Translations under genes and position numbers: made by a program
Notes under the pieces: generated by a model
Told to the model about the DNA's origin: nothing
What the model saw: only the letters and a program-made list of their open reading frames with translations
The model's database searches: none
Shown here: in pieces, positions 152-10,321 of the stretch
How positions within the stretch are numbered: position 1 is the first letter of the stretch
Layout of the letters: each line of letters begins with the position of its first letter
From: Bacilli bacterium
GTDB taxonomy: Bacteria; Bacillota_I; Bacilli_A; RF39; UBA660
Assembly: GCA_016283935.1 (NCBI GenBank)
Contig: JAEENX010000024.1
Span: 1-45,480, forward strand
Reading direction: 5' to 3'
Length of the DNA stretch: 45,480 nucleotides

Positions 152-811
152 ATGAAATATTTAAAACCATCTTTGATTATTAACTGTATAATTGTATTTT
201 TAGTTACATTAGGAAGTATATTTATGTTTACAGGTTTTAGATTTATGCCATCTGAAACTTTATTAGAATCTACAAAATTAGGTATGTTCAAATTCTATAC
301 AGTAGATTCAAATATATTAGCTGGAATTATTTCATTAGTATTTATAATATTTGAAATAAAATTAATGAAAGGTAAGATTAAAGAAATACCAAAGATTATT
401 TATAATTTAAAATTAATGGCTACAGCTGGTATAACTCTTACATTTATAGTAACTGCAATCTTCTTAGCACCTATGTATGGTTTCTATGCAATGTATAATA
501 ATACTAATTTATTCTTTCATTTGTTTGTACCAGTTTTATCAATGATTACATTTATATGTTTTGAAAATTACGATAATAAATATAAATATGCATTCTATGG
601 AATGATACCTATGATGATTTATTCAGTTTATTACACAACTAATATATTATTACACTTAGAAAATGGTAAACCAACAATAGAATATGATTTCTATTGGTTC
701 CTACAAGGAAATGTTAATAATATATATTTTGTAATACCAATTTTATATTTAGTAGCTTATTTAATATCAATACTTACTATCTTTTTAAACAAGAAGGTAT
801 TGAATAAATAA
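152..811 (+). CDS. six-helix membrane protein, Pr6Pr-like
   Basis: The product is 219 residues with about six hydrophobic helices (near residues 8-28, 54-70, 85-105, 118-136, 148-166 and 190-213). The FYTVDSNILAG stretch near residue 48 recalls the F-T-x-x-SN-I/L motif of Pr6Pr/FAR-17a-like membrane proteins, whose role in bacteria is poorly known. A TATAAT box at 130-135 and AGGTGAT at 142-148 precede the ATG, so the leader is only about ten bases. It is transcribed alone; the next promoter lies over its 3' end. The family assignment rests on one motif and the helix count. Confidence 0.6.
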   Translation: MKYLKPSLIINCIIVFLVTLGSIFMFTGFRFMPSETLLESTKLGMFKFYTVDSNILAGIISLVFIIFEIKLMKGKIKEIPKIIYNLKLMATAGITLTFIVTAIFLAPMYGFYAMYNNTNLFFHLFVPVLSMITFICFENYDNKYKYAFYGMIPMMIYSVYYTTNILLHLENGKPTIEYDFYWFLQGNVNNIYFVIPILYLVAYLISILTIFLNKKVLNK

Positions 812-827
812 TTTAATATGCTATAAT
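800..827 (+). promoter_or_regulatory. promoter of the T-box/glyS unit
   Basis: TTGAAT (800-805), 16 bases, then TATAAT (822-827) preceded by TG at 819-820 (extended -10). Transcription should start near 834. The -35 box lies inside the last codons of the preceding gene. Confidence 0.7.
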
Positions 828-833
828 TGTTGT

Positions 834-950
834 ATTAAAAGAAGCAATGACGGGCTTGGAAACCTAACAGCTATATAGAATACCAATGAGAACAAAGTAT
901 GGTGGAACAGCGTTTAAATACGCCCATATATGATTGTTCTCATTTTTTAT
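834..950 (+). ncRNA. short T-box leader (tRNA-Gly sensing expected)
   Basis: The canonical antiterminator is complete: TATGG (898-902), a seven-base bulge TGGAACA holding the TGGN that pairs with the tRNA 3' end, GCGT, a loop, then ACGC and CCATA (ending about 929). The arm TGAGAACAA (887-895) pairs with TTGTTCTCA (934-942), followed by six Ts: an intrinsic terminator. Only about 50 bases lie between the predicted start and the terminator, so Stem I is greatly reduced. A GGC at 853-855 could be the glycine specifier, but its placement is not classical. Control of glycyl-tRNA synthetase is inferred from the downstream glyS. Confidence 0.8.
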
Positions 951-965
951 TTTAAGGAGGGGTGT

Positions 966-1526
966 ATGAAAGTATTCATTGGATGCTCAGCTAGTAGTTC
1001 ACTTGCAAAAGAATATTATGAGTTAGCTTGTAATGTTTCGGAGATTTTTTCAAAACGAGGGCATAAATTAGTCTTCGGTGGCTTTGATAAAGGCATGATG
1101 GAAAAATGTTACATGACATTTAAATATGAAGATTCTAAAGTTAAAGCAGTTGCAACTGTTCAAGATTCTGAATACATAGCAGACTTAGACTTAGATGCAA
1201 GAGAAGTAGTACCTAAAACATTTGATAGAACAAAAAGATTATATGAAATAGCAGATATAATCGTTATTCTACCAGGTGGAATTGGAACACTTGCTGAATT
1301 TATGTCTATGTTAGACTATAGAAGATGTTCTAACTATGATAAGAAACCAATTATATTATTTAACTATAATAATTATTACACACCTATAATAAATATGTTA
1401 AAAGGTATGTATGATAGTAAATTTTGTAATGCAAATGATTTAAAAGAATTTAATATAGTTAATAATTTGCAAGGATTAGAATTTTACTTAAAACAATTAG
1501 AATTAGATGAAAAAGGAGAAAGATAA
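966..1526 (+). CDS. LOG-family (TIGR00730) Rossmann-fold protein
   Basis: The product is 186 residues. It has a glycine-rich N-terminal Rossmann strand and the family signature PGGIGTLAEF near residue 107. LOG proteins release the base from nucleoside 5'-monophosphates by phosphoribohydrolase activity, but many bacterial members have no assigned substrate. The start at 966 follows a strong AAGGAGGGGTGT site; the earlier in-frame ATG at 930 lies inside the T-box terminator and is unlikely. It is the first gene after the glycine T-box and ends two bases before glyS, so both are co-transcribed. Confidence 0.8.
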   Translation: MKVFIGCSASSSLAKEYYELACNVSEIFSKRGHKLVFGGFDKGMMEKCYMTFKYEDSKVKAVATVQDSEYIADLDLDAREVVPKTFDRTKRLYEIADIIVILPGGIGTLAEFMSMLDYRRCSNYDKKPIILFNYNNYYTPIINMLKGMYDSKFCNANDLKEFNIVNNLQGLEFYLKQLELDEKGER

Positions 1527-1528
1527 AT

Positions 1529-2917
1529 ATGGCAAAAAATATGGAAGAATTAGTTAATTATTGTAAGCAATACGGATATATATTCCAAGGATCTGAAATC
1601 TATGGAGGACTAGCAAACTCTTGGGATTATGGTTCATTAGGAAGAGAATTAAAGAATAATGTTAAAAATGCATGGTGGAAGAAGTTCATTCAAGAAAACA
1701 CTAATGCTGAATATAGAAATTATGGATTAGATTCAGCAATTTTAATGAATCCAGAAGTATGGGTTGCATCAGGACACGTTGCATCATTTGCTGATCCATT
1801 AATTGATTGTAAAAAATGTAAGAGTAGAGAAAGAGCAGATAAGCTTATTGAAGAATTTACTCATGGAGAAGAAACTGGTGATGGATGGGATAATGAAAAA
1901 TTAGAAAAATTCATTGCTGAAAATCATGTACCATGTCCAAAATGTGGATCATGTGATTTTACTCCAATTAGAAAATTCAATTTATTATTTGAAACTCATC
2001 AAGGTGTAACAGAAGATTCTAAATCAATTGTTTACCTAAGAGGTGAAACAGCTCAAGGAATATTCGTTAACTTCTTAAATGTACAAAGAAGTATGAGAGC
2101 AAAAGTACCATTTGGTATTGGACAAATTGGTAAATCATTTAGAAATGAAATTACTCCTGGTAACTTTATATTCAGAACAAGAGAATTTGAACAAATGGAA
2201 CTTGAATTCTTCTGCAAACCAGGAACTGACTTAGAATGGTTTGCATTCTGGAAACAAAATTGTTTAGACTTCCTAGAAACATTAGGATTATCTAAAGAAA
2301 ACTGTAGATATAGAGATCATGCTAAAGAAGAATTATCATTCTATTCTAAAGCAACTACTGATATCGAATATCAATTCCCAATGGGATGGGGAGAACTTTG
2401 GGGTATAGCAGATAGAACAGACTATGACCTTTCAGTTCATATGGAACATTCTAAACAAAACTTACAATATTTAGATCCAGAAACAAATGAAAAATATACA
2501 CCATATGTAATTGAACCATCAGTTGGTGTAGATAGATTAGTTTTAGCTTTATTAACAGAAGCTTATAAGAAAGAAACATTAGAAGATGGAACTGAAAGAG
2601 AAGTATTAGCTCTTAAACCATACTTAGCTCCATATAAAGTAGCAGTATTACCATTAGTTAAAAAGATTCATGGTGAAAAAGCTAATGAAATATTCCAAGA
2701 ATTATCTAGATCATTCATGGTTTCATACGATGAATCAGGTAACATTGGAAAACGTTATAGAAGAGCTGATGCAGTTGGTACACCATTCTGTATTACAATT
2801 GATGATGAAACAATTAATAATGGCACAGTTACTCTAAGAGATAGAGATACAATGGAACAAATTACTCTTAAATTAGAAGAAGTAAAACCATATATTGAAT
2901 CTAAATTAGAATTCTAA
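1529..2917 (+). CDS. glyS: glycyl-tRNA synthetase, single-chain (alpha2) type
   Basis: The 462-residue product charges tRNA-Gly with glycine in the cytoplasm. It is the homodimeric class II type rather than the GlyQ+GlyS heterotetramer. Motif 2 is visible around GKSFRNEITPG and FRTREFEQMELEFF (about residues 200-228) and motif 3 as GVDRLVLALL near 332. Two cysteine pairs (CKKC near residue 92, CPKCGSC near 135) suggest a zinc site in the insertion. AAAGGAGA before the ATG overlaps the end of the LOG gene. The T-box upstream would raise expression when uncharged tRNA-Gly accumulates. Confidence 0.96.
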   Translation: MAKNMEELVNYCKQYGYIFQGSEIYGGLANSWDYGSLGRELKNNVKNAWWKKFIQENTNAEYRNYGLDSAILMNPEVWVASGHVASFADPLIDCKKCKSRERADKLIEEFTHGEETGDGWDNEKLEKFIAENHVPCPKCGSCDFTPIRKFNLLFETHQGVTEDSKSIVYLRGETAQGIFVNFLNVQRSMRAKVPFGIGQIGKSFRNEITPGNFIFRTREFEQMELEFFCKPGTDLEWFAFWKQNCLDFLETLGLSKENCRYRDHAKEELSFYSKATTDIEYQFPMGWGELWGIADRTDYDLSVHMEHSKQNLQYLDPETNEKYTPYVIEPSVGVDRLVLALLTEAYKKETLEDGTEREVLALKPYLAPYKVAVLPLVKKIHGEKANEIFQELSRSFMVSYDESGNIGKRYRRADAVGTPFCITIDDETINNGTVTLRDRDTMEQITLKLEEVKPYIESKLEF

Positions 2918-9364: not shown

Positions 9365-10321
9365 ATGAAAAATAAATACATTATTAAATCAACTAGTCAT
9401 ATTATTATTTCTAATGAAATAAAAAAACTAACTGAATCAATTGAAAATGTATCTTATTTTTCTATGAATGACACTGAATTAGATGACATCATAGTTGATG
9501 CATCTTACTTTGGTTTTTTTGATACTGCTAAAGCAATAGTAATAACTGAATTTACTTACTTTGGTGATAAATTTAAACATGAAGAAGAAGCAAATAAAAT
9601 TATTGAGTTCTTAAAGAAACTTGATGAAAGATGTACAGTTATATTTGTAGTATCTTCTTTAGATAGTAGAAAAGACTTTACAAAGAAAGTATTAGAATTA
9701 GGAACTGAATTATTAGATTTTAGTAATTTATCTCCTGAGACTATAAAAAATAATGTAGATCAATATGTTATAGATAATAAACTTATTTTAGATAATAATG
9801 CTTATCAAGAAATATATAATAAAACTAAAGGATATTTAGATATTATAATTGGAGAAATAAATAAATTATCTTTAATAGAAAAACATATAACATTAAATAT
9901 AGTAAATGAATATGGTTCTAATTATATGATTGAACCATATAATCAAGATAATAACTATGATGATATTATATGGAAATTCTATGATGCAGTTACATCAAAG
10001 AATTTTAAAGTTATATTTGAACTATTAGATCAATTATTAGCTAGGGGAGAAGAATATGTTACATTAATAAGTGGTATATTTAATCAATTCTTACCTATAT
10101 ACATAATTAAATGTATGGAAGCTAATAAAGAATCTAAAGAAACCATGATTAAAGTAACAGGATATTCTGATAAAAGAATATTTATGTTACAAAAAAAAGG
10201 AAGAATATATACTAAAGATGATATAGAAAATATATTACTAAAATTAACTGATATAGATATTAAATCTAAATCAGGATATGACATAGCATATATGTTTAAA
10301 GAATTTTTAATAGAATTATAA
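9365..10321 (+). CDS. holA: DNA polymerase III delta subunit
   Basis: The 318-residue product has the layout of HolA, the clamp-loader subunit that opens the beta sliding clamp. An N-terminal divergent AAA+-like region holds the A-I-V-I-T-E strand near residue 56 and VIFVVSSLDSRKDFTKKV near 94. A helical C-terminal domain ends with the conserved I-K-S-G-Y-D-like segment near residue 300. HolA proteins are divergent, and length and architecture agree with the family. TAGGTG overlapping the upstream stop serves as its ribosome site. Confidence 0.85.
   Translation: MKNKYIIKSTSHIIISNEIKKLTESIENVSYFSMNDTELDDIIVDASYFGFFDTAKAIVITEFTYFGDKFKHEEEANKIIEFLKKLDERCTVIFVVSSLDSRKDFTKKVLELGTELLDFSNLSPETIKNNVDQYVIDNKLILDNNAYQEIYNKTKGYLDIIIGEINKLSLIEKHITLNIVNEYGSNYMIEPYNQDNNYDDIIWKFYDAVTSKNFKVIFELLDQLLARGEEYVTLISGIFNQFLPIYIIKCMEANKESKETMIKVTGYSDKRIFMLQKKGRIYTKDDIENILLKLTDIDIKSKSGYDIAYMFKEFLIEL

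Follow-up and report, generated by a model that had tools for sequence, protein, structure and literature searches.

In current models, a transcriptional T-box works by a swap between antiterminator and terminator. It is held to depend on a Stem I that contacts the tRNA elbow, which gives it speed, and on a Stem III for binding of the tRNA acceptor end. The glyQS/glyQ T-box of Bacillus subtilis (RF00230) is specific for glycine, lacks Stem II, harbours a UGGN bulge between helices A1 and A2, and controls a glycyl-tRNA synthetase through an intrinsic terminator, all of which are also features of the leader described here. A translational T-box with an ultrashort Stem I has reportedly been described for actinobacterial ileS by Sherwood et al. 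in 2015. According to a review, these actinobacterial ileS T-boxes act on translation and need a Stem II along with their short Stem I (PMC7583486).

The window is a 45,480-nt stretch of a Bacilli genome (assembly GCA_016283935.1, contig JAEENX010000024.1; GTDB family UBA660). Its positions 834-950 form the leader upstream of a LOG-type gene and glyS (Table 1). Its identity as a glycine T-box is nearly certain. The specifier matches the amino acid of the regulated gene, helices A1 and A2 are separated by a 7-nt bulge that contains a UGGN sequence complementary to the NCCA end of the tRNA, and the leader of these amino-acid-related genes (LOG gene and glyS) ends in an intrinsic terminator (885-948). 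From 5′ to 3′, the small hairpin at 843-872 is followed in the transcript by a single-stranded segment, the antiterminator and the U tract, with terminator arms enclosing the antiterminator. It has no elbow-binding tip, no Stem II and no Stem III.

Table 1. Features of the glycine T-box leader and of the genes that follow it (positions in the window)
Feature	Position	Strand	Basis or remark
Promoter	800-827	+	TTGAAT 800-805, 16-nt spacer, TATAAT 822-827, TG-extended -10
Ultrashort Stem I	843-872	+	basal helix 843-845/870-872, internal loop, helix 852-854/863-865, apical loop 855-862
K-turn-like internal loop of Stem I	846-851, 866-869	+	sequence, fold
Specifier codon GGA (Gly)	858-860	+	in apical loop CUUGGAAA; U857 before, conserved purine A861 after
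Linker (tether), single-stranded	873-884	+	joins Stem I to terminator 5′ arm; Stem II absent
Terminator 5′ arm	885-895	+	remnant purine string (AAUGAGAACAA) where Stem III would be
Antiterminator	897-929	+	A1 897-902/924-929, A2 910-913/920-923; T-box model match
T-box bulge UGGAACA, 7 nt	903-909	+	UGGA 903-906 complementary to tRNA-Gly 3′ end UCCA
Terminator 3′ arm	934-944	+	fold, arm swapping, covariation
U tract of intrinsic terminator	943-948	+	sequence
Shine-Dalgarno AAGGAGG	954-960	+	outside terminator hairpin
LOG/SLOG-type gene, first of operon	966-1526	+	Pfam PF03641, PF18306
glyS, class II glycyl-tRNA synthetase	1529-2917	+	follows LOG/SLOG-type gene

Homologous leaders stand ahead of glyS, or ahead of a LOG gene followed by glyS. 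A LOG/SLOG-family gene between the glycine T-box and glyS was seen in the window and, apparently, in several relatives as well.

The first-pass annotation had described an ultra-short T-box with a drastically reduced Stem I, and it had allowed for a transcript starting well upstream of 834. The description is borne out by the specifier, the UGGA bulge and a Stem I of ~30 nt directly preceded by a promoter, and we saw no sign of a more distant start; judging from the promoter position, transcription would begin at about 834. Promoters were scored at 24 positions before Stem I, with a threshold of at least 10 of 12 matches. Of the 110 homologous leaders, 84 have such a promoter at this site, in most cases with the TATAAT box 20-21 nt ahead of GATGA, as opposed to 1/110 in a control window further upstream. 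Since the promoter occupies a fixed spot directly before Stem I, these sequences give no sign of a long Stem I hidden upstream and appear to rule it out.

Within Stem I, the putative K-turn, a motif marked by tandem G.A pairs at the base of the stem, reads GAUGA...GAGC in most relatives and AAUGA...ACAGC in the window. Having CA for the 3′ GA, and an extra A, the K-turn of the window is apparently weakened. The window shares the AAUGA/CA form and the extra A with L010, its closest relative; nearly all relatives have GAUGA/GA. The start of the linker (873-877, AUAUA; AAUAUA or similar in relatives) is strongly conserved, with no evident pairing partner.

The GGC triplet at 853-855, which the first-pass annotation described as the only one and as lying on the unexpected side, had been taken as the specifier. 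We rejected it because 853-854 belong to the helix below the apical loop; the loop itself presents GGA at 858-860. Only Gly codons were found at this place in the 110 parsed leaders (GGA 93, GGC 15, GGG 2), in a re-anchored count that replaces a looser early pattern, which had given some GGG and GGT. The U before the codon and the purine after it were part of the search pattern, and hence their constancy is partly built in; UGG plus a purine is also present in each of the seven leaders that had escaped the pattern on other grounds. Stem I is kept in the 110 leaders with helix variants such as GGG/CCC, UGAG/CUCA and CAAGG/UCUUG, the helix beneath the specifier loop varying in length, mostly between 3 and 5 bp. 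The tRNA-Gly species of the same genome have anticodons UCC and GCC. The anticodon loop of tRNA-Gly(UCC), CUUCCAA, is complementary to UUGGAA over six bases, and tRNA-Gly(GCC) fits the GGC form of the specifier. Both tRNAs end in UCCA, matching the UGGA of the bulge, and the non-glycine T-boxes of this genome have UGGU or UGGC instead.

The nested layout is not unique to the window leader. Two checks proposed in the first-pass annotation, a search with the Rfam T-box model and an alignment of glyS leaders from relatives, were carried out. In all nine other genomes of the genus with a full glyS, the layout of the glyS leader is identical. The window leader scores 23.4 bits with RF00230, whose cutoff is 93, and the leaders of five relatives likewise remain under the cutoff. 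As the Rfam model misses such leaders, T-box control in gut Bacilli is under-counted. We built a covariance model, R1, restricted to Stem I, A1 and A2, with the terminator arms left out. At E<=1e-3, R1 matches 269 of the 291 family genomes, mostly draft assemblies, and 145 of 150 genera, although some of the weakest of these matches will be other T-boxes, those of the window's own genome reaching at most 34 bits. At E<=1e-6, it matches 18 of 198 class genomes and 8 of 295 phylum genomes, all of the same family, and no genome outside the family in these two samples. In the genomes searched, this reduced kind of T-box thus appears confined to one family of Bacilli. A peptide-pattern scan of contigs yielded MAGs carrying the leader, labelled Tenericutes (L110), Erysipelotrichaceae (L067) and Bacilli (L040 and L042), and missed the closest relatives.

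The parsed leaders are of two types. Type A (96 leaders) keeps Stem III (GATTC-TTCTA-GAAT) and mostly has a bulge ending in ACC with a G.U closing pair. Its terminator 5′ arm is built from the Stem III sequence, so that only one of the two, terminator or Stem III, can form at a time. Type B, with 14 leaders including that of the window, plus L183 and L223, has no Stem III and harbours A[AC]CAAA at its position. It occurs in at least five genera, and the evidence on it comes from 14 to 16 leaders of limited diversity with few independent arm changes. In the window, Stem III is absent from between the RRRxG and AA elements that flank it elsewhere, and the purine flanks remain. The median distance from Stem I to A1 is 24 nt in type B and 31 nt in type A.

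All 14 type-B leaders combine the bulge UGGAACA with a G-C closing pair of A2. When all leaders are considered, a bulge ending in ACA is combined with G-C in 17/17 cases, and the closing pairs found with ACC are G.U (80), A-U (7) and G-C (6). Since the loss of Stem III is accompanied by both the C-to-A change in the bulge and the G-C closing pair (14/14), the discriminator appears to have been remodelled as a unit. In the core of the 5′ arm, AGAMCAAA, seven of the eight positions are invariant in 14/14 type-B leaders, and the eighth covaries with its partner (A-U/C-G). Four of these invariant positions nevertheless face a mismatched base in the 3′ arm in 1-4 of the 14 leaders. The 5′ strand is thus conserved beyond its pairing, which argues for a second job of this strand. 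One leader from an uncultured Bacilli MAG (L042:1811-1930) is nested and devoid of Stem III, with a different arm, AGAGAC/GUCUCU, and an ACC bulge.

All the structures discussed here are predictions. The leader folds with a minimum free energy of -26.2 kcal/mol (z = -3.0), and 0 of 200 shuffled sequences were as stable. An 11-bp terminator helix, 885-895 with 934-944, encloses A1, A2 and the bulge. The first-pass annotation had recognized nested arms, at 887-895 and 934-942, and only their extent had to be revised. Its antiterminator, given as 898-929 and called textbook, does have good A1 and A2 helices; it begins at 897, and it departs from the textbook in its bulge, which ends in ACA and not ACC, and in the closing pair of A2, which is G-C and not G.U. 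Folding gives -8.6 kcal/mol for the antiterminator alone and -20.1 kcal/mol for the antiterminator with the outer helix, which contributes ~11.5 kcal/mol of its own. Terminator and antiterminator are therefore predicted to fit into one secondary structure and not to be mutually exclusive. This agrees with the earlier view that both helices can form together and that the classical swap fails to explain regulation, the nested, compatible fold being conserved in relatives. In the nascent RNA 834-933, before the 3′ arm is made, the 5′ arm is predicted to be ~94% unpaired, and no competitor for it is predicted within this segment.

Nesting was further examined across the relatives. The strand before the U tract pairs 5′ of A1 in 102 of 109 leaders, and those of the remaining folds that were inspected had a misplaced U tract; the alternative terminator excluding the antiterminator that the first-pass annotation had envisaged in relatives was not found among these leaders. 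A1 and A2 covary, with 100% of cells paired. The outer arms covary as well, 3 of 12 outer pairs being changed on both sides among 15 distinct type-B leaders. Over the complete nested fold, 7 pairs are changed on both sides in 15 distinct type-B cores, a number reached by 0/500 shuffles, and slid control versions of the type-B structure have 0-1. In this count the register of the 3′ arm was chosen by pairing, and the cleaner test is by permutation: in both type A and type B, the arms of a leader pair better with each other than arms swapped between leaders (0/5000 permutations). As the outer arms covary in relatives, nesting is no chance fold, and fold, covariation and arm swaps together uphold the claim that the terminator encloses the antiterminator.

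Other T-boxes differ in their geometry. The Rfam model found 12 others in the window's own genome at E<=1e-3; 7 of them are nested, 3 pair the T-box sequence with the terminator and 2 are classical. In the group of three (L001, L008 and L151), the T-box sequence itself, AGGAUGGUACC, pairs with a downstream complement, and the terminator encloses only helix A2, which represents a third switch geometry. The best-scoring other T-boxes in the family comprise 19 classical ones, 6 called nested (4 of them clear), 2 T-box-sequestering ones and 3 that were left unclassified. According to these predictions, the glycine leaders of the family are as a rule nested, and nesting is a minority trait among its other T-boxes. 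We rejected nested terminators as a general T-box feature, since 26 of the 29 classified T-boxes from other families of the class are classical; two ‘nested’ calls outside the family (L270 and L279) look like wrong U tracts on inspection. One tyrS-like leader of the window's own genome (L150; G000:C8:8933-11051, leader ~9933-10051, minus strand) also has an ultrashort Stem I and a nested terminator. Its apical loop presents UAC, a Tyr codon, and the leader further contains Stem III and an element resembling Stem IIA/B.

Based on these analyses, the window leader is probably a transcription-attenuating glycine T-box reduced to a specifier hairpin and a discriminator. We infer tRNA binding, the direction of regulation, and exclusion by a latch or a tether as follows. 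The Stem I hairpin would present the Gly codon of its apical loop to the anticodon of tRNA-Gly, and uncharged tRNA-Gly would be held twice, with its anticodon on 858-860 and its UCCA end on UGGA 903-906. The rival of the terminator would not be the antiterminator but the segment 5′ of it, namely Stem III in relatives and the purine string 885-896 in the window. With the tRNA bound at both ends, the purine strand would be stretched between the two contacts and lie on the tRNA:T-box helix; it could not pair with 934-944, and RNA polymerase would read through. With charged tRNA or none, the free strand would pair with 934-944 once this is transcribed, and the closed outer helix would make the antiterminator the top of one long terminator hairpin. 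The second task of the invariant 5′ strand is likely that of a latch on the tRNA-bound antiterminator. In favour of a latch, the published purine string RRRxG-Stem III-AA sits exactly at the position of the terminator 5′ arm of the window (PMC7583486). More tentatively, T-box switching might here do without two mutually exclusive hairpins, and the terminator arms would be separated by the doubly bound tRNA itself. If so, a tRNA sensor acting on transcription could manage with two contacts, needing neither Stem II nor Stem III nor a contact to the elbow.

With both ends of the tRNA bound and the outer helix closed, ~12 linker nucleotides would have to start at the anticodon end, pass the acceptor end and cover another 11 bp. 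This rough length estimate, which is not a computation, points the same way and favours tether exclusion. Against our best explanation, the ON and OFF states are predicted not to be exclusive by secondary structure alone. Furthermore, published complexes show stacking of the tRNA on A1 on the side of the bulge, and thus the opposite end of A1, from which the outer helix extends, would not be directly blocked. The apparently weakened K-turn of the window is a further point against it. According to the review cited above, an antiterminator without Stem III hardly binds tRNA, and the elbow contact is generally needed by T-boxes that act on transcription (PMC7583486). The window leader has neither, which also counts against the proposed mechanism; in another study, truncation of Stem III had a minor effect only (PMC6197855).

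Regulation might instead be that of a classical kinetic T-box, in which a long-lived complex between tRNA and antiterminator delays closure of the outer helix until the polymerase has passed the U tract, and in which the purine string plays no special part. The 5′ arm is indeed predicted to be free until 934-944 is made, and T-box complexes live at least 24 s, which is long relative to elongation (PMC6197855). However, this scenario does not account for any hindrance of the outer helix by a complex with both arms free, and it leaves the one-sided invariance of the 5′ arm unexplained; we consider it less likely. In the most stable terminator fold, the antiterminator makes up the upper half, which might also hint at reverse control, with the antiterminator nucleating the terminator and tRNA promoting termination, or at a constitutive attenuator with a relic T-box. 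Both appear very improbable, given that about 150 genera have preserved Stem I, specifier, bulge and UGGN, and that repression of glyS under uncharged tRNA-Gly would be physiologically senseless. Lastly, a longer transcript from an upstream promoter could bring a normal Stem I or another antiterminator, and read-through from the upstream gene, which ends at 811, is conceivable. We find this hardly credible in view of the promoter fixed next to Stem I (84/110 leaders versus 1/110 in the control) and of a 5′ arm that is ~94% unpaired in 834-933, where nothing competes for it.

We file the window leader as a T-box variant that is new with respect to both the canonical transcriptional type and the translational ultrashort type. 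A search of the literature outside subscription journals found no paper on transcriptional ultrashort glycine T-boxes or on enclosing terminators. Family-wide leaders devoid of an elbow-binding Stem I, with nesting and, in one subtype, without Stem III, make the supposed requirements testable in ~115 nt. They also suggest a stepwise reduction, from a long Stem I with a classical terminator to an ultrashort Stem I with Stem III opposed to the terminator, and then to the loss of Stem III.

Compared with glyQS, whose long Stem I ends in a tip that binds the elbow and which possesses a genuine Stem III, the window leader has a Stem I of ~30 nt without the elbow-binding double T-loop, and no Stem III. 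In glyQS, the 5′ strand of the terminator is the 3′ strand of the antiterminator, making the two mutually exclusive, whereas the terminator of the window encloses the antiterminator in a nested and compatible arrangement. With the actinobacterial ileS translational T-box, the window leader shares a short Stem I that exposes the specifier in its apical loop and lacks an elbow-binding tip; it differs by its transcription terminator, its free Shine-Dalgarno sequence and its lack of Stem II. The tyrS-like leader L150 resembles it in its ultrashort Stem I and nested terminator, but has retained Stem III and an element of Stem IIA/B type. The type A relatives of the same family have the same ultrashort Stem I and the same nested terminator and, unlike the window leader, have kept Stem III.
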